Assembly (NCBI GenBank): GCA_021793405.1
Contig: JAJYSV010000014.1
Location: 1 to 64,000 of the forward strand
Reading direction: 5' to 3'
Length of the DNA stretch: 64,000 nucleotides
Source of the DNA: Acidobacteriota bacterium
GTDB taxonomy: Bacteria; Acidobacteriota; Terriglobia; Terriglobales; Acidobacteriaceae
Shown: positions 36,728-45,625 of the stretch, one piece after another
Layout of the letters: the number at the start of each line of letters is the position of its first letter
Position numbering within the stretch: the stretch's first letter is position 1
The notes under the pieces: generated by a model
Seen by the model: the letters and a program-made list of their open reading frames with translations, nothing else
The model's database searches: none
What the model was told of the DNA's origin: nothing
Made by a program: the position numbers and the translations under genes

Positions 36728-37744
36728 CTATTTGATTCCAACCGCCATGGAATCCGGTCCCACGAGATGTTCGACGCGCACCTGGCGAAATCCTGCTTCC
36801 TGCATCCAGCCCATGCAGTCGGCCCCCGCGTAGTCGAAGCCGCCCGGAGTTTCGATCAGCATATTCAGGCTCATCAGCAGGCCAAAAGCGTTCTTCGACC
36901 GGTCATCGTCGATCATGGAGTCGTACACAATCAGCGCGCCTCCTTCGGGAATCGCCTCGTAGGCCTTCCGGATCAGCATGCGCTTCTCTTCCAGGTTCCA
37001 GTCGTGGAGGATGTGGCCCATCATGAGAACATCCGCCCTGGGCAGCGGATCGCGAAAGAAATTGCCGGCCTGGAATCGCACCCTGGACGACAGCCCGTTG
37101 GCCTCCACATACTCCTCAAAGATGGGAGCAACTTCAGCCAAGTCAAATCCGATGCCGGAAAGGTGCGGATTTTTGAGCGCCACCTGAACGATCAGATCGC
37201 CCTGGGCGGCGCCGGCGTCGGCCACGGTCGCATAGTTTGCCCAGGGAAACTTGGAAGCAATGGCAAGGTTCGCGCCGCGGCTGATCCCGGTCATCGCGCG
37301 CAAAAATCCCTTCAGCCGCTCCGGATCGGCATAGAGCGTGGCGAAAACATCCGGTTCGCCATGCGCTGCCTCATTCTGCGGCTGGCCGGTGCGCAGGGCT
37401 GTGGTCAGGTTGTTCCAGTGTCCGTAAAGGCGGCGATTCGCCATCTCCAGCATTCCGCCAATGTAGGACGGCTTGTGCTTGTCCAGGAAAAAGTCCGTGG
37501 AAGGCGTGTTGGAATACTTTCCGTCGTGGCGCTCGAGAAAGCCTAGCGCCACCAGCGCGTCGAGAAAATCGCGGGAGGACCGCGGATGCAGGCCGAGCCG
37601 TCCTGTCAGCGCATTCAGGTCTTCGGGGCCCTTGGCCAATTCGGTAAAGACCTCCATTTCGACCGCGCTCAGGAGTGTCTTCGAGGCCCAGAAACCTGTG
37701 CCAATTTGCAGGATGTGATCGGGTTGCAGCGGCGTGGTCGTCAA
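36728..37744 (-). CDS. SAM-dependent O-methyltransferase (methyltransferase family 2)
   Basis: A 338-residue class I methyltransferase with an N-terminal winged-helix dimerisation part ([45 protein letters not shown]). The SAM-binding domain has [20 protein letters not shown] and the characteristic [17 protein letters not shown]. These enzymes methylate phenolic or carotenoid-like hydroxyls; the substrate here is unknown. I chose TTG 37744 because GGGGGA lies just upstream and it gives the usual length. The ATG at 37831 lacks a ribosome site. The next gene upstream is a paralogue. Confidence 0.82.
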
Positions 37745-37861
37745 ATTTTTTCCCCCGTTGGTTGGTTCTTGTTGTTCTCGCAAACGAATTCCCGCAGGGC
37801 TTTCAATCACGGAATTCGCGTCGCCGGACATCGTCTGGCCCAGGCTTCGACTGTGAATGCC

Positions 37862-38887
37862 TCAGGCGTTCCCGGTCACAATCGTGTGCGGGCTCATCGG
37901 GATGGGATGGGCACTCATCCCTTGGAATCCAGCCTCGCTGTACATGCTGGTCAGTTCGCTCAGCGTATAGGCATCGCCGGCCGCCGTGCTGGTCAGCATG
38001 GTCATGGCAAAGGCCGCGGGCATGGGTGGAGAAACGCGGTCTTCGTTCGGAACAAACTCCAGCGTCGCGCACTTTCCGCCCGGACGCAGCGCAGCTTTCA
38101 CCTTGTGCAACAGTCCCACGCAGGTCGGCTTGTCGAAGTGGTGCAGAAAATTCGTCAGCAGCACAGCGTCGTACGGTCCGTCGAAATCCACCTCAAACGC
38201 GCTGCCCGGCAGCATCTTGTAACGATCGTGAACGCCGGCCTTGCGGGCATTGTCCAGGGCTACGCGCAACACCGGGGCCCAATCCAAACCAGTGACGCGC
38301 GCTTGCGGATTCTGCTTCGCAACTTCAATTCCGAAGAGGCCATGACCGGCGGCGATGTCCAGCACCCGCATCGGACCGGACTGTCCCTCCAGCACAATTT
38401 TGCCCAACGGACCCACCATGGGGGCCATCATCGGCGCCATGGTCTCAGCAAACTGCACCCAGATCGGATTCTCCGGCTCCACACTGCCATCGCCCGGCAG
38501 CACGGTACGGCCGGTGCGCACGATCTTCCCCAGATTGTCATAGGTCGCTCGCATCTCCGGATTGGCAAGGAACTGTGCGATGGAGGCGAGGCATGCAGGG
38601 GAGCGCGGATCGAGAAATGCCGCGCTCGTCGGCGAGTGTCGATAGCGCCCGTCCTCTTTGAGCAGCACGCCGTAAATCGTCAGAAAATCGCACAGGATGC
38701 GGATGCCCCGCTCCGAGGCCGCGCAGTGACGCGCGATGGAAGCCACGTCCCCCGGCCCTTCCCCCACTGCCCGGAAAAGATCCAGATCGATCGCCGCTTT
38801 CAGGGCCGCGGTGCGCTGATGCGCCTGTAGCATTTCGAAAACCAGACCCGGAGTTACCGGGCCTTCGCTGCTATTTCCAGCATGCAT
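37862..38887 (-). CDS. SAM-dependent methyltransferase with winged-helix N-terminus
   Basis: A 341-residue paralogue of the neighbouring gene. The N-terminal helix-turn-helix part has LDLFRAVGEGPGDVASIARHC and ILCDFLTIYGVLLKEDGRY. The SAM motif is VLDIAAGHGLFGIEVAKQNP, followed by VTGLDWAPVL and LLTNFLHHFDKPTCVGLL. GAGGAGG lies 6 nt before the ATG, so the start is firm. Both methyltransferases probably act in the same pathway, but no other biosynthetic genes are adjacent and the substrate is unknown. Confidence 0.85.
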   Translation of the reverse strand: MHAGNSSEGPVTPGLVFEMLQAHQRTAALKAAIDLDLFRAVGEGPGDVASIARHCAASERGIRILCDFLTIYGVLLKEDGRYRHSPTSAAFLDPRSPACLASIAQFLANPEMRATYDNLGKIVRTGRTVLPGDGSVEPENPIWVQFAETMAPMMAPMVGPLGKIVLEGQSGPMRVLDIAAGHGLFGIEVAKQNPQARVTGLDWAPVLRVALDNARKAGVHDRYKMLPGSAFEVDFDGPYDAVLLTNFLHHFDKPTCVGLLHKVKAALRPGGKCATLEFVPNEDRVSPPMPAAFAMTMLTSTAAGDAYTLSELTSMYSEAGFQGMSAHPIPMSPHTIVTGNA

Positions 38888-38992: not shown

Positions 38993-39805
38993 CTACCTGG
39001 CTGCCAACAGAGAGGATGAACGGGCATTGGCGGCGAAATGCTGCTGCGGGAGTTGGTAATCCCGATACTGAATCGTCAGGGTAGCGCGACCTCCCAGCCG
39101 GATAGTGGAAACACTTTTATTATTCCGGGGCAGCCAGAACTCTCCCACTTTTTCATAGGTTTGAGCAATGGTGGTACTTGTGATCCAGAACGAGGGGTTT
39201 TTGGCCGGTTTCGCTTGAATGCGGCAGACGGCGAAATCCTGGTCGTTGATCCAGATTTTTCCGCGATAGAGATATTTGTTGGGATGTTTCGGTTCGACAG
39301 ACACCACGTAGGAGCAGCCGTCCGCCGCCGGTTCATAGTCGAGGTCGCTAAAGTTGTAATTTTTCTGGTTCAGGTCGACGGCTTTTCTGGTTACGTCCTG
39401 CTGCGCATCCGATTCGGTCTTCACCAGCCGCTTCAGGACGCGATCGACCAGCCATTTTGGGCCGCTCTGGGAGGTAATCTTGAATTCCTTTGTGTTGGGC
39501 GCGTCGTAGGTCATCTCCACGACTATCGTGGCAAGCAAGTTGCCAGGAAACCCACGGTACGCCACGGTGTAGGTGCGGCTCCCCTGATAGCTTGTCAGAT
39601 CTCTGGCGCGCGCCGCGTTCCTCGCCACGAGCGTACCCACCACCTGAGAAAGGGTCATAGGAGGCACGGTCGATTTTGCCGGAGCAGCTGCCGCGAACAG
39701 TTCGCCGGACCCCAGGATATTCAGAAATAGAAATAGCGCCGCGAAGAAAGCATATCGGCGAAATCCGGCGATCTCATACGACCGTGTGTGCACGTGCAGA
39801 ATCAT
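38993..39805 (-). CDS. exported LolA/lipoprotein-sorting-like protein
   Basis: A 270-residue protein with a signal peptide (YAFFAALFLFLNILGSGELFAAAA). The mature part contains RTYTVAYRGFPGNLLATIVVEMTY, FKITSQSGPKWLVDRVLKRLVKTE, DGCSYVVSVEP and KIWINDQDFAVCRIQ. This pattern of beta strands with a KIWIN/D step resembles outer-membrane lipoprotein-sorting (LolA/LolB/RseB-like) half-barrels. Specific function is not established. It overlaps the upstream glycosyltransferase gene by 32 nt, so the two are co-transcribed. Confidence 0.65.
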   Translation of the reverse strand: MILHVHTRSYEIAGFRRYAFFAALFLFLNILGSGELFAAAAPAKSTVPPMTLSQVVGTLVARNAARARDLTSYQGSRTYTVAYRGFPGNLLATIVVEMTYDAPNTKEFKITSQSGPKWLVDRVLKRLVKTESDAQQDVTRKAVDLNQKNYNFSDLDYEPAADGCSYVVSVEPKHPNKYLYRGKIWINDQDFAVCRIQAKPAKNPSFWITSTTIAQTYEKVGEFWLPRNNKSVSTIRLGGRATLTIQYRDYQLPQQHFAANARSSSLLAAR

Positions 39806-41015
39806 TCAGGCTCCGGTAGTTGTCGTGCATGATTGCCGCGGCCATGGGCACGGATAGTTGAGAACAATACGTTTGATAGATGTTTTGAAACGCACTGTCC
39901 CAGGAACTTGCCTGAGCGTACTGACGCGCTGCCGTACGCATCGAGGCCAGCAGGTCTGGAGTTGTCATCAGGGTGGCAACGCAGGCTGCGAATTCCTCGA
40001 AGTTTCGGGCGACGTATCCGGTCTTTCCATGCTGGACCGTGTACTTTGGGCCACCGGTCGCAGTCACAACGGGCGCAACCCCGGACGCAAGGGCTTCGAG
40101 AACGACCAGGCCAAAGGTCTCCGTCTCAGAGGGAAATGCCAGCACATCCATATTCGCATACGCACGCGACAGATCGTTGCCGGTAAGGACGCCGGAAAAT
40201 TCCGCACGCTGCAGTTTTGCACGTAACCAGCCCTCCTCCGCACCTTGGCCCACGATGAGAAGCCGGAAATCGCGATATCCTTTATGATGCAGCGCCAGTT
40301 CCAGCCGCGACAGCCAGCGGATATTTTTTTCCGGGGTGAGACGGCCCACATAACCGATCGTGAACGGGCCGTTCTGGCCGTCGCGGAATCTTGGATCGAA
40401 CCTGGCTGTATCGACCCCATGGCCCATCGGAAAGCAGGGCTTCCCAGTCGCCTGGATCAGTTCCTCCACGATTTCCGGGTTGGGCGCAAAGAGAAATCGG
40501 GGAATCCTATAGAAGCGCATGGTTGCGAGCCGGCTGAATTTCCTCGCCGCGCGCGAGACGGGGTTGGCTAGGTTCTCCGGCAAAAAGGAGAGCGCTTTGG
40601 AGGCGCGCAAGCCCGCGTATTCCGGAAGATTTGTCTGCCAGAACGCTGCCAGAGGAATTTTCAAATTGTAAGCGTGCAGCGCTCCCAAAATGCCAACATC
40701 GCTGGGGCCGGTGATCTGAACCACGTCTGCCGCGAACTCGCGCAGCAGAGCAGCCACCTTCCGATAGTGCCGTAAGAAAAACAGGTCGAACTCGTGATTG
40801 CGGTCCAATGGAAATTTTATCGGCCCGCGGCGAAGCTGCACGCGGGTGACCGAACCCTCGCGGATGACCTCGTCGCATGGACCGGCATGGACCATCATGA
40901 ACGGGATATCTCGTTGGCGAGCGTACGCTGCGAAGTTACGGGCAACCACCGCGACTCCGTCCACTTCATGGAAGGCATCGGGGAAAAAGGCGACCCGGAG
41001 GTGTCGCTCTTTCAC
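39774..41015 (-). CDS. GT4-type glycosyltransferase
   Basis: A 413-residue GT-B fold enzyme of the glycosyltransferase 4 family. The N-terminal domain has RVAFFPDAFHEVDGVAVVARNFA. The C-terminal nucleotide-sugar domain has FTIGYVGRLTPEKNIRWL, RLLIVGQGAEEGWL and PSETETFGLVVLEALASG, the E-x7-E motif. It may glycosylate a lipid or envelope component. The start is GTG and overlaps the PHP gene stop as GTGA. It does not look like BshA, so I do not link it to bshC. Confidence 0.88.
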   Translation of the reverse strand: MKERHLRVAFFPDAFHEVDGVAVVARNFAAYARQRDIPFMMVHAGPCDEVIREGSVTRVQLRRGPIKFPLDRNHEFDLFFLRHYRKVAALLREFAADVVQITGPSDVGILGALHAYNLKIPLAAFWQTNLPEYAGLRASKALSFLPENLANPVSRAARKFSRLATMRFYRIPRFLFAPNPEIVEELIQATGKPCFPMGHGVDTARFDPRFRDGQNGPFTIGYVGRLTPEKNIRWLSRLELALHHKGYRDFRLLIVGQGAEEGWLRAKLQRAEFSGVLTGNDLSRAYANMDVLAFPSETETFGLVVLEALASGVAPVVTATGGPKYTVQHGKTGYVARNFEEFAACVATLMTTPDLLASMRTAARQYAQASSWDSAFQNIYQTYCSQLSVPMAAAIMHDNYRSLNDSARAHTVV

Positions 41016-42199
41016 GAAATCGCCTCGGACGGGCTATCGGAAAGCAGATGCAAGTCCACCTCGTCGGCGTAGACGCGTTTCGCCGCCCACTGGATGGTCG
41101 TATTTTCCGCCAACCGGAAGACCGAAAAAATGCGCTCGACGAATGCGGGGGGCGCCTTCCAGAAAGCGGAAATCGGGAGGAAGCCGGTGCCGGTCTTGTC
41201 GGGATGAAAGACGCGGTCGTCCCAACGGCGAGACCCTTCCGGATATTCCGGATAGTAACGAATCACGTCCAGCACAGCGTGCGCAACGCGAACGCACATC
41301 GGATCGGCATACTGCTGCATGAATAAAATGTGGCTGCGTTGCTGATTGCGAATTTCGTCGACGAACTCTGCAAAGCTCTGTGCACGGCTCAAATTGACCG
41401 TAGCGCTCGGCTCGCACGCGTGACGGTCACCCCCGGAAACGATCGGCAAACCCCAGCGTTCCGCCAACGGAACCACGCGTTTATTCTCCTCCCACTTTCG
41501 CATCCCATTCAGTTCCATGGCGTGCAAAAAGGCGCCGTTCTGCCGCATAAACGTATCCAGGCAAATTGCGTGGCGCTCCGCTCCTAATCCACCCAGGTCC
41601 CACCATGGATGGTTGAACACAATCAGCACTTCCGGAAACCCATGCAGCGCCGCCAGCAGTTCCGTCACGTCCGCGGTGCGAGGCTTCTGCGTGTACTGCT
41701 CCAGCGCCTGCGTCAGATCGTGCGCATGCGCGACCGGTAGATTGTGAACTCCCAGATGAAACACGCTGCCGTCATACGGAACGGTCCACTCCATTGACAG
41801 TGGAACTTCCGCCGTCTCTTTCGCCAGGCGCAAGAAGGATGGAGCCTGAATCGAATCATGATCGGTCAGGCTTACAAGCGCCGCCAGATCCAACTCGCGC
41901 TCAATCTGGTCCTTCTCCACTTGGTAAGCCAGCTTTGGCGTCAGCGGGGAGGTCCAATAGGCGCGAGAAAAATCTACCGGAACGACGGATTTTCGATACT
42001 GCCGGTCCAGTGCCCGTTGGATAATGGGCCATTTTTCCGTAAAAGCCGGGATGAACTGAAGCTTCTCTTTCGAATGTCGCGTGTGGCTATGGAGGGATAA
42101 CCCGGTGCGATATCCGCGTGTGCAGTCTGTACTTCTCCAAATACACGAAACTTTAGTGGATGCCAATGGAAATAGAACCTCGCTGATCTGTGAACACAT
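41012..42199 (-). CDS. PHP-domain phosphoesterase-like protein
   Basis: A 395-residue protein with the metal-binding motifs of the PHP family: GLSLHSHTRHSKE (HxH at 37/39), ALVSLTDHDSIQAP, VLIVFNHPWWD and VSGGDRHACEPS. Such proteins hydrolyse phosphate mono- or diesters, including nucleotides and phospholipid-like compounds. The fused or overlapping PHP-glycosyltransferase pair suggests a shared substrate, perhaps a lipid-linked sugar; this is an inference. The N-terminal 30 residues look unlike the family, so the true start may be later. Confidence 0.75.
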   Translation of the reverse strand: MCSQISEVLFPLASTKVSCIWRSTDCTRGYRTGLSLHSHTRHSKEKLQFIPAFTEKWPIIQRALDRQYRKSVVPVDFSRAYWTSPLTPKLAYQVEKDQIERELDLAALVSLTDHDSIQAPSFLRLAKETAEVPLSMEWTVPYDGSVFHLGVHNLPVAHAHDLTQALEQYTQKPRTADVTELLAALHGFPEVLIVFNHPWWDLGGLGAERHAICLDTFMRQNGAFLHAMELNGMRKWEENKRVVPLAERWGLPIVSGGDRHACEPSATVNLSRAQSFAEFVDEIRNQQRSHILFMQQYADPMCVRVAHAVLDVIRYYPEYPEGSRRWDDRVFHPDKTGTGFLPISAFWKAPPAFVERIFSVFRLAENTTIQWAAKRVYADEVDLHLLSDSPSEAIS

Positions 42200-42649
42200 T
42201 ACACCCCCAGACCGATTGTCGGCACTCGTTCTGGAGAGAAAGACTTGGCTGCCATATTCGACTTGTTCCCAACAAATAGGTCATCGTGCCGTCATCTCTT
42301 TTGTGCCATGACAGCGTTCGCCCAGATATCCTCTTAACATCTTAAGACATTGACGATCTCCGATAGTTTACCCCAACCGCAACAATCGTAAAGGCTGACA
42401 CCGTCAACCCCGATAGAAAAACCACGAGATTCCGCGCCAAATTGGCCTCCGCACCGCACAACTCCAATCTCAGTCGCGCAACCAGGCATCGCGGCCCGTG
42501 GGATCTTGTATATCAGGAAGAGCTTGCGACGGTATGGGAAGGGTTGCGGCGCGAGCGAGATCTGAAGACGGAAAAAGGCCGCGAGGAACTCAAATGCGTC
42601 CTGCGCAAGCCATTGGCCTGATCTCACGCGTGATAATCTCAAAAAGGAT
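42200..42649. other. 450-nt gap with a possible decayed coding remnant
   Basis: Most of this region shows nothing definite. On the plus strand, one frame is open from 42367 to the TGA at 42619-42621 without an ATG. Its last part reads PWDLVYQEELATVWEGLRRE and continues ERDLKTEKGREELKCVLRKP, which is protein-like. It may be the tail of a lost gene. GATAAT at 42632-42637 is a possible -10 for the tRNA. Confidence 0.3.
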
Positions 42650-43885: not shown

Positions 43886-44020
43886 CCGGCGCAGACTCCG
43901 CATCGATTCCTCGCATCTCCGCCCCTGCTGTAAGCATCCACTGCATGAGACACTTGGCATGTGCGCTGGAACCTGGCCTTCGGCGGCCAAGCCAGTCCAC
44001 CCCTCAGGAGCGACGCGCAG

Positions 44021-45625
44021 TTGAACGCAGATTGCTATCCCGTTACGGCGCTGCCCCATGTCAGCCCGCTGTTCCGCGACTACGTGTCCGGCAATTGGGA
44101 AAAGCTGTCCGCGTTCTATTCCGATGCGGCTGCCGCGGACGGTCAGTGGATGCTCGACCCCCCGGCGATCGAGCCAGCGCATCGAGCGGACATTGTCGAA
44201 TTGCTGCGCCAGCAGAATCGCGGTTTTGGCGCGGGCTCCGCGACGGAATCCAATTTAGACCGGCTGGCTGCGGGAGCTGCCGCTGTTGTCACAGGCCAGC
44301 AGGTCGCGCTGTTCGGCGGTCCGCTGATGACTCTGATGAAGGCTGCAACCGCGATTCATCTGGCCGGGGAGGCGAGCCGTGCGGGTCATCCCCATGTGCC
44401 CATCTTCTGGCTGGCCAGTGAAGACCACGACTTCGACGAAGTGAACCAGGCCACAATCCTGTGCGGCAAGGACATCACCACGCTGCGGCTGCCGCAGCCT
44501 TCCGCGCCGGGAAAACCGGTCGGCGATCTGCCGCTGGGCGATGCCATACTGCCATTGCTCGGCGAGCTGCGCCGATGTCTGGGCGAGAACAGCGTCACGA
44601 ATCTGCTTTCCACTCTGTACACTCCCACCGCGACCTTTGCTTCCGCCTTTGGCGGGCTTCTGTCACGCATCTTCAGCCGATACGGTTTGATAGTGATCGA
44701 CGCTTCGGCGCGGGCGTTCCATGCGCTCAGCGCTTCGACGTTGCGAGCCTCCATTGAACGAGCCGACGAGATCCATGCCGCGTTAATCGAACGTACCGCC
44801 GCGTTGGAGCAGGCGGGATACCACGCCCAGGTAATGGTGGGCGATTCCTCGAGCCTGCTGTTCTTGGTGAACGAAACCAGCGACGCGCGCGAGGCGCTGA
44901 AAAAAATAGCGAGCGACACATGGTCGGCGGGCTCTACGCGATATACGACCGCTGAGGTGATTGCCATTCTCGACGCGGCACCGGAGCGCATCAGCCCCAA
45001 CGCTTTGCTGCGTCCAGTCGTTCAAGACACACTGCTTCCGACTTCCGCCTACATCGGCGGACCGGCGGAGGTTGCCTACTTTGCCCAATCGCAGGTCGTC
45101 TACCAGCGCATCCTTGGCCGCGCCACCCCGGTCCTGCCGCGGTATTCGGCAACGCTGATTGAGCCAGCACTAGCGCGGCTACTCGAGCAGCATGGACTCG
45201 CGTTGCCCGATGTGTTTACTACCGGAGACGCGCTCGCTCATCAACTTGGCGCGCGGGCGATGCCAGTGGAAGGCAAGCGCAAGCTTTCCGCCGCAGGGAA
45301 TGCGCTGCATGACGAGCTGGAAGTGGTCACGACATGGATGCGCGCGCAGGATGAAGGGCTGGGCCACGCAGCCGACATTGCTGCATCGAAAATGCTGTAC
45401 CAGATGAATCGCCTGCGCCGGCTCTCCGCCAATTTTCAATTACAACGCGATCAAAGCCTGCGCCGGCACGCCGATGCGCTCTGTCTCAATCTTTTTCCCA
45501 ACGGTAATTTGCAGGAGCGCGTCTTCGCCGGAGTTTCCTTTCTCGCCCACAATCCATCCCTCATCGACTTGCTCGTCGAACAAGCATGCACGGAGAATTG
45601 CGGTCACCACGCGCTGTATCTATAG
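44021..45625 (+). CDS. bshC: bacillithiol biosynthesis cysteine-adding enzyme BshC
   Basis: BshC attaches cysteine to glucosaminyl malate, the last step of bacillithiol synthesis. The 534-residue protein shows YPVTALPHVSPLFRDYVSGN near the start, AAVVTGQQVALFGGPLMTLM and VPIFWLASEDHDFDEVN. It has LLRPVVQDTLLPTSAYIGGP, AEVAYFAQ and a C-terminal coiled coil ending in CLNLFPNGNLQERVF. I chose TTG 44021 because CAGGAG lies 10 nt upstream. A GTG at 43961 is in frame. bshA and bshB are not in the window. Confidence 0.92.
   Translation: MNADCYPVTALPHVSPLFRDYVSGNWEKLSAFYSDAAAADGQWMLDPPAIEPAHRADIVELLRQQNRGFGAGSATESNLDRLAAGAAAVVTGQQVALFGGPLMTLMKAATAIHLAGEASRAGHPHVPIFWLASEDHDFDEVNQATILCGKDITTLRLPQPSAPGKPVGDLPLGDAILPLLGELRRCLGENSVTNLLSTLYTPTATFASAFGGLLSRIFSRYGLIVIDASARAFHALSASTLRASIERADEIHAALIERTAALEQAGYHAQVMVGDSSSLLFLVNETSDAREALKKIASDTWSAGSTRYTTAEVIAILDAAPERISPNALLRPVVQDTLLPTSAYIGGPAEVAYFAQSQVVYQRILGRATPVLPRYSATLIEPALARLLEQHGLALPDVFTTGDALAHQLGARAMPVEGKRKLSAAGNALHDELEVVTTWMRAQDEGLGHAADIAASKMLYQMNRLRRLSANFQLQRDQSLRRHADALCLNLFPNGNLQERVFAGVSFLAHNPSLIDLLVEQACTENCGHHALYL

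Follow-up and report, generated by a model that had tools for sequence, protein, structure and literature searches.

Three overlapping genes of an Acidobacteriota genome were studied in a window of 64,000 nt, the window being the whole stretch analysed (positions 1 to 64,000 of contig JAJYSV010000014.1, assembly GCA_021793405.1, family Acidobacteriaceae). They encode a divergent phosphoesterase of predicted PHP fold (hereafter PHP), its partner of glycosyltransferase family 4 (GT4), termed GTA, and a LolA-like protein (LOL); GTB denotes a second GT4 gene of distant loci. PHP and GTA are supported as a real co-occurring, adjacent module, to which LOL is a later addition in one lineage. The explanation that we prefer, and that has in our estimate an even chance of being right, is that the unit would serve membrane-lipid remodelling like that of the PlcP-Agt system, with a PHP-fold phosphoesterase instead, so that phospholipids may be exchanged for sugar lipids. 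The features of the unit, with each gene being an open reading frame (ORF), are as follows.

41012..42199, minus strand: predicted PHP-fold metal-dependent phosphoesterase, first gene of the unit, open ORF of 395 aa
39774..41015, minus strand: GTA, GT4 glycosyltransferase, open ORF of 413 aa with a GTG start
38993..39805, minus strand: LOL, predicted LolA/LolB-type half-barrel with an N-terminal hydrophobic segment, open ORF of 270 aa
41012..41015, minus strand: GTGA, the 4 nt shared by the PHP stop and the GTA start, from ORF coordinates
39774..39805, minus strand: 32-nt overlap of the GTA end and the LOL start, from ORF coordinates

The initial annotation of this DNA had described three minus-strand genes overlapping by 4 and 32 nt, which the ORF coordinates confirmed. 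The identities it gave them (PHP phosphoesterase, glycosyltransferase and LolA-like protein) were also borne out, with the fold of LOL predicted at moderate strength only. The genome has a size of 4.6 Mb in 137 contigs, and the relatives that bear a name belong to Acidobacteriaceae and to other Acidobacteria; PHP, GTA and LOL are all conserved at the protein level in relatives. A start codon allowing the 4-nt overlap was found in 23 of 47 scored PHP/GTA pairs, some of them outside Acidobacteriaceae (one locus was entered twice, as L124 and L179). Among the GTA/LOL pairs scored, a start allowing the 32-nt overlap is found only in the window, L046, L047, L048 and L050.

The window PHP protein had no match in Pfam. 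PF02811 was matched by 0 of 32 PHP homologues at E ≤ 0.1, three of which gave a weak PHP_C match, and the family profile retrieved from the solved chains a single weak PHP chain (E 0.67). The AlphaFold2 (AF2) model has a predicted local distance difference test (pLDDT) score of 81 and a predicted template modelling (pTM) score of 0.83. Foldseek matched it to the PHP domain of RNase AM (7ug9, E 1.9e-7), and in the VIA comparison the Z-scores were 17.9 with 3e38, 15.9 with PsfC (7rty) and 14.9 with 2yb1; the ten best chains were of PHP type (Z 14–18), and non-PHP rows scored about 5 or lower. Histidinol phosphatases are among the matched structures, as is 2yb1, in which AMP and phosphate are bound; the HSHT and TDHD regions of PHP align with 9etk. 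The metal-site motif of PHP proteins consists of H-x-H, DH, E, H and D-x-H. Eleven residues (H37, H39, E45, D113, H114, E137, H148, H197, E229, D258 and H260) are invariant in 32 of 32 PHP sequences and are the expected, putative metal-site or PHP-motif positions; the alignment (A2) consists of the window protein and of those from 31 named loci, all 34 except L050, L071 and L078 (a fragment). The predicted fold together with these residues, and not Pfam, is the reason for the PHP-fold assignment; a profile-HMM miss is compatible with membership of the PHP superfamily. No export signal was read in the PHP sequence. A match to TIGR02032 was discarded as evidence (13.7 bits vs. a cut-off of 158.8).

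GTA clearly belongs to GT4 by its sequence: the Glyco_trans_1_4/Glycos_transf_1 domains (Glyco_trans_1_4 in Pfam with E 1.4e-27) and the E/D-x7-E motif are present. Across the alignment A3, which joins the window sequence to 21 of the 24 GTA-bearing loci (L045 and L054, cut by contig ends, and L050 were excluded), the first position of this motif is D in 15 of 22 sequences and E in 7, the window being among the latter. The solved structures nearest to the GTA profile are 3c4q/3c48 of the MshA type, followed by PimB; chains resembling sucrose-phosphate synthase are matched as well. The top NCBIfam model of both GTA and GTB is the synthase of N-acetylglucosaminyl-phosphatidylglycerol (GlcNAc-PG), with 76 and 119.5 bits, respectively, at a cut-off of 480.

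Linkage of the genes was followed at three levels. Within the genus of the window, PHP occurs in nine of ten genomes, and PHP, GTA and LOL stand side by side in eight (G000–G005, G008 and G009). The contig of G006 stops within GTA, and G007, which is 98% complete, has neither PHP nor a LOL match, its closest GTA match having an E-value of 6.9e-11. Among 34 named PHP loci, GTA follows downstream on the same strand in 24, and LOL is next in nine; three of the 15 loci with GTA and without LOL stop inside GTA. The three genes are also present in a cultured, named species, Acidipila rosea DSM 103428 (L068). In a phylum sample of 297 Acidobacteriota genomes (cut-offs E ≤ 1e-5 for PHP, 1e-50 for GTA and 1e-20 for LOL), PHP was detected in 52, GTA in 51 and both in 47 (Fisher p 4e-44, uncorrected for relatedness), and in 38 of these 47 the two genes are adjacent on the same strand. 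LOL was found in 24 of the 297 and lies beside the PHP-GTA pair in three; it adjoins the pair in a few further Acidobacteriaceae, and the other inspected copies are located elsewhere. Co-occurrence of the three genes, named as a check in the initial annotation, held for the pair (47 of 52 PHP genomes, 38 of 47 adjacent) and not for LOL. A universal pathway of three genes was rejected, since only three of the 297 genomes have LOL next to the pair.

Several loci depart from this arrangement. L066 (Edaphobacter), L074 and L077 (Granulicella), L073, L166, L167 and L175 carry PHP without an adjacent GTA and with a GT2-type gene nearby. In two genomes that yielded no divergent PHP, another small protein, PHP-domain-like by reading and with no Pfam match, is encoded beside a GT2 gene near GTA. 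The two loci, in G297 and G329, are the following:

L131, 7608-8357: small PHP-domain-like protein next to GT2
L172, 9961-10710: small PHP-domain-like protein next to GT2

The contig of L072 is labelled Rhodanobacteraceae and holds PHP and GTA of the acidobacterial type, by transfer or misbinning.

The neighbourhoods of some distant PHP copies contain genes of lipid-headgroup type and suggest a function in lipid metabolism. Distant PHP-GTA loci often have downstream a small membrane protein of no Pfam family and GTB; a MacB/FtsX-like permease follows PHP-GTA in L119, L123, L125, L138, L177 and L178. The sets of genomes with the membrane protein and with GTB are nested within those with GTA: GTB occurs in 21 of the 297 genomes (E ≤ 1e-60), all of which have GTA, and the membrane protein in 31 (E ≤ 1e-6), of which 30 have GTA and 24 have it within 3 kb. 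In G102, the sole genome with the membrane protein and without GTA, LOL stands directly behind the membrane-protein gene, 47 nt away. In family f24 (L123, L125 and L177), the module is followed by a DUF3419 gene (Pfam 2.1e-97), which we take to be of the BtaA family, and by a methyltransferase gene that is presumably BtaB-like from its position. DUF3419 was detected in 22 genomes, 13 of which have PHP, and in eight of these 13 it lies within 2 kb of GTB. Two more of the 13, G194 and G226, show the order DUF3419-methyltransferase-PHP, this PHP being a second copy away from GTA.

The third protein, LOL, is with moderate support a predicted LolA/LolB-type half-barrel. Its AF2 model has a pLDDT of 70 and a pTM of 0.61, the five models ranging in pLDDT from 70 to 48. 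Foldseek matched DUF1329, LolA, LolB and MucB/RseB with E-values of 1e-5 to 1e-3 and best TM-scores of no more than 0.41; in the VIA comparison, Z was 9.7 with 3bk5, 9.1 with DUF1329, 9.0 with P. gingivalis LolA3 and 7.7 with LolB. The three best VIA matches span 174–177 residues, and the top rows are almost all of Lol type, so the half-barrel survived the structure prediction that the initial annotation had named as a check. LprG is a binder of lipids and glycolipids, and its match to LOL (Z 6.0) was given no weight because an unrelated barrel, the OmpC model, scored higher (Z 6.5). Sequence searches of LOL gave only sub-threshold matches, to DUF5686 in nine of ten and LolA_like in two of ten. 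The N-terminal hydrophobic segment is read as a putative export signal. LOL (38993-39805) did not match the Pfam LolA family PF03548, and two other genes of the window genome did; LOL as the housekeeping LolA was rejected on this ground.

A tree of LOL was built from the best match per locus, with sequences of fewer than 150 residues removed and identical rows merged, which left 36 rows. Thirteen module copies, each beside a PHP-GTA pair, form one clade (99/97), one further module copy (G022) stands apart, and the other 22 rows are located elsewhere. Two location changes suffice for this tree, which is also compatible with a single origin of the module placement in G022 and the 13-copy clade. 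Nine aligned module copies are 48–86% identical to the window LOL. Some LOL relatives lie near genes for HpnI-type hopanoid glycosyltransferases, with 310.6 bits in L140 (cut-off 310) and sub-cut-off scores of 257–289 in L149, L150 and L153. Relatives outside the module in L142, L143, L145 and L146 are close to genes that read as regulators of CRP/FNR type.

Genes of phosphate metabolism accompany some distant copies. The neighbours are GDPD, Ppk, PhoX, Psd and a PmtA-like protein in L126; PstC, PstA, GDPD and a PhoB-like protein in L131; a Na/Pi symporter, PhnX and Phn-HD in L130; alkaline phosphatase in L127 and L128, with a PhoB-like protein in L127 as well; and Ppk beside a distant GTA in L170 and L171 (the PmtA-like and both PhoB-like matches are under the curated cut-offs). 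With eight probe proteins, phosphate-type genes were counted at 7 of 57 module loci, i.e., loci with PHP or GTA, vs. 0 of 15 controls; L144 holds GTA, hence the 16 controls became 15. L045–L048, L053, L054, L057, L059, L062–L065, L069, L070, L072 and L078 are absent from this count. The neighbourhood signal is suggestive only.

Upstream of PHP in the window, a weak repeat was found:

42278..42295, plus strand: Pho-box-like direct repeat with 3 mismatches to CTGTCAT-N4-CTGTCAT, non-significant

The window has two Pho-box matches vs. 4.1 expected by chance; the repeat is reversed relative to the gene, and no conserved block is evident in an alignment of seven upstream sequences. With up to four mismatches, Pho boxes occur in 14 of 65 PHP upstream regions and in 175 of 1429 regions upstream of other mechanical ORFs. 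A same-strand GTCAY-N6-GTCAY repeat (period 11) was found in 14 of 64 PHP upstream regions vs. 39 of 2511 of the other mechanical ORFs. Upstream of PHP, GTCAY repeats with periods of 9, 10 or 12 or in reverse orientation were not enriched, and period 13 gave 3 of 64 vs. 22 of 2511 (p 0.02).

Predicted folds, conserved sites, gene linkage and neighbourhoods were obtained directly here; the substrates, products, transport and phosphate regulation of the unit we infer as follows. PHP, via its conserved multi-metal site, would strip the phosphate head group from a phospholipid or dephosphorylate a lipid phosphate, leaving diacylglycerol or another neutral lipid as the acceptor, onto which GTA, translated from the overlapping gene, would add a sugar. 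In other Acidobacteriota, GTB may extend the product, its movement may fall to the small membrane protein and the MacB/FtsX-like permease, and a betaine lipid may be built on this acceptor by enzymes of BtaA/BtaB type. LOL, which in the lineage of the window became the last gene of the unit, would probably ferry the lipid over the periplasm, and the product would be a glycolipid bound for the outer membrane; LOL as a carrier is the weakest link of the model. The initial annotation had suggested a small pathway making and moving a glycolipid. The PHP-GTA pair, the lipid-headgroup and phosphate genes around some distant copies and the LolA/LolB-type fold predicted for LOL speak for it; as a trio, the pathway is not general.

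A number of observations weigh against lipid remodelling. We know of no PHP enzyme that acts on phospholipids, and the top NCBIfam match of GTA lies far under its cut-off. DUF3419 adjacency is seen only in family f24, with DUF3419 lying 39–49 kb off in three f35 genomes; an NCBIfam search of the DUF3419 protein returned no name, and at the cut-offs used neither the membrane protein nor GTB nor DUF3419 is matched in the window genome. None of the seven loci with phosphate genes is in Acidobacteriaceae, some module loci themselves supplied the probes, the control set is small, and no phosphate gene was noticed beside the unit in the window. The GTCAY pattern was set after viewing the sequences, its controls are mechanical ORFs, and the related sequences are non-independent. 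In 20 pstC upstream regions of relatives (one of only 650 bases, another of 2162, with pstS not recognised in all), four same-strand period-11 matches fell within the 0–8 found for other periods. As to LOL, its model is moderate, its likeness to LprG is no better than to the OmpC-model barrel, and of the 24 sampled genomes in which it occurs, just three have it next to the pair.

The last figure bears on a partly different explanation, to which we give somewhat less than an even chance and which is compatible with the others: LOL is a passenger of a PHP-GTA lipid or glycoside module, the half-barrel being otherwise employed, e.g., in lipoprotein sorting or sensing. The two location changes required by the tree agree with it, whereas the single clade of 13 copies, all beside the pair, the 48–86% identity of the nine aligned copies, the overlap of the genes in the nearest relatives and, in G102, the independent linkage of LOL to the membrane-protein gene argue against a passenger. 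LOL would likewise be an unrelated envelope neighbour if the unit produced soluble glycosides, GTA glycosylating a small phosphorylated acceptor, from which PHP removes the phosphate, as in the sucrose-phosphate synthase/phosphatase pair or in mycothiol synthesis by MshA. PsfC, among the best structural matches of PHP, acts on a small substrate. The matches of PHP to 2yb1 and histidinol phosphatases, the proximity of the GTA profile to MshA-type and sucrose-phosphate-synthase-like chains and the location of most LOL copies elsewhere fit soluble glycosides. However, DUF3419, the permease, the membrane protein, Psd and the PmtA-like protein near distant copies point to lipids, and MshA was, according to the available part of PMC8231724, also the modelling template of GTcp, a GT4 enzyme dependent on diacylglycerol; we consider soluble glycosides unlikely. 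It seems quite improbable that the unit makes a glycolipid without saving phosphate, with PHP acting on a phosphorylated lipid intermediate, GTA yielding GlcNAc-PG or another sugar-modified phospholipid and LOL carrying it. The top NCBIfam model and the carrier-like third gene would suit such a product, but both scores are far under the cut-off, and the deacetylase and predicted flippase of the gpgSDF operon, in the accessible part of PMC12713373, have no counterpart among the three window genes.

Lipid remodelling in the manner of PlcP-Agt can be extended to a more specific scenario, which appears doubtful to us: Acidobacteriota would have independently evolved a PHP-fold phospholipid phosphoesterase that feeds a GT4 glycolipid and a BtaA/BtaB-type betaine lipid under phosphate scarcity, and in one lineage overlapping genes would tie this enzyme to a dedicated LolA-type carrier by which the glycolipid reaches the outer membrane. 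If true, the PHP enzyme would be a second, unrelated means of making a lipid acceptor from phospholipids, and the LolA-type protein a candidate carrier of glycolipids as opposed to lipoproteins. Acidobacteriota are abundant in soils, many of which are phosphate-poor. No phosphate-saving lipid pathway for Acidobacteria was apparent in the titles from an open-access literature search naming Acidobacteria.

Two O-methyltransferase genes (Dimerisation and Methyltransf_2 domains) lie on the same strand at 36728-38887 of the window (minus), about 105 nt after LOL; a homologue is also found behind LOL in L048. The gene at 43961-45625 (plus strand) has a product resembling what we take to be BshC of bacillithiol synthesis.

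Compared with the known PHP phosphoesterases (RNase AM, PsfC, 2yb1 and HisK), the window PHP shares the predicted fold and the putative metal-site residues and differs in being under Pfam PF02811 detection, in its link to a GT4 gene and in an additional C-terminal region in which W326, R329 and V330 are invariant. LOL shares its predicted fold and, by reading, an export signal with the LolA/LolB and DUF1329 half-barrels and differs from them in lacking a PF03548 match and a readable lipobox. The gpgSDF operon of P. aeruginosa, which directs the synthesis of glucosaminyl-phosphatidylglycerol, also combines a GT4 enzyme with partner genes and provides the nearest NCBIfam model; its partners, in the available text, are the deacetylase GpgD and the predicted flippase GpgF (PMC12713373). 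In the available excerpts of two further papers, LolA-like or PHP genes are mentioned as part of other lipid clusters, and the PHP-GTA pair is not shown (PMC13078400, PMC12419801). In GTcp, as described in the accessible part of PMC8231724, Asp replaces the signature Glu, a feature shared by 15 of 22 GTA sequences, though not by the window GTA.

PlcP is an enzyme of the calcineurin type. It is termed a metallophosphoesterase in the accessible parts of the plcP literature, according to which plcP adjoins btaA/btaB or the glycosyltransferase gene agt (PMC4796936), and diacylglycerol released from phospholipid is used for a betaine lipid or glycolipid (PMC4796936, PMC8231724, PMC8528852, PMC9239053). 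The remark in the initial annotation that its author knew no described pathway with these three parts has to be qualified: a phosphoesterase gene beside a GT4 gene is the layout of the known plcP-agt operon for lipid remodelling, as far as the excerpts show, though the phosphoesterase there is a different one (PMC4796936, PMC8231724, PMC8528852). With PlcP-Agt of SAR11, roseobacters, Agrobacterium, Pseudomonas and methanotrophs, the module shares a phosphoesterase gene directly before a GT4 gene (38 of 47), alternative partners of btaA/btaB type, a second glycosyltransferase and phosphate genes near the copies of some families. It differs in the predicted PHP fold of the phosphoesterase and in the extra parts, namely the membrane protein and permease of other families and the putative LolA-like carrier in the lineage of the window. 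Because PlcP has another fold, the unit is not a member of the PlcP-Agt system, although it may work like one.

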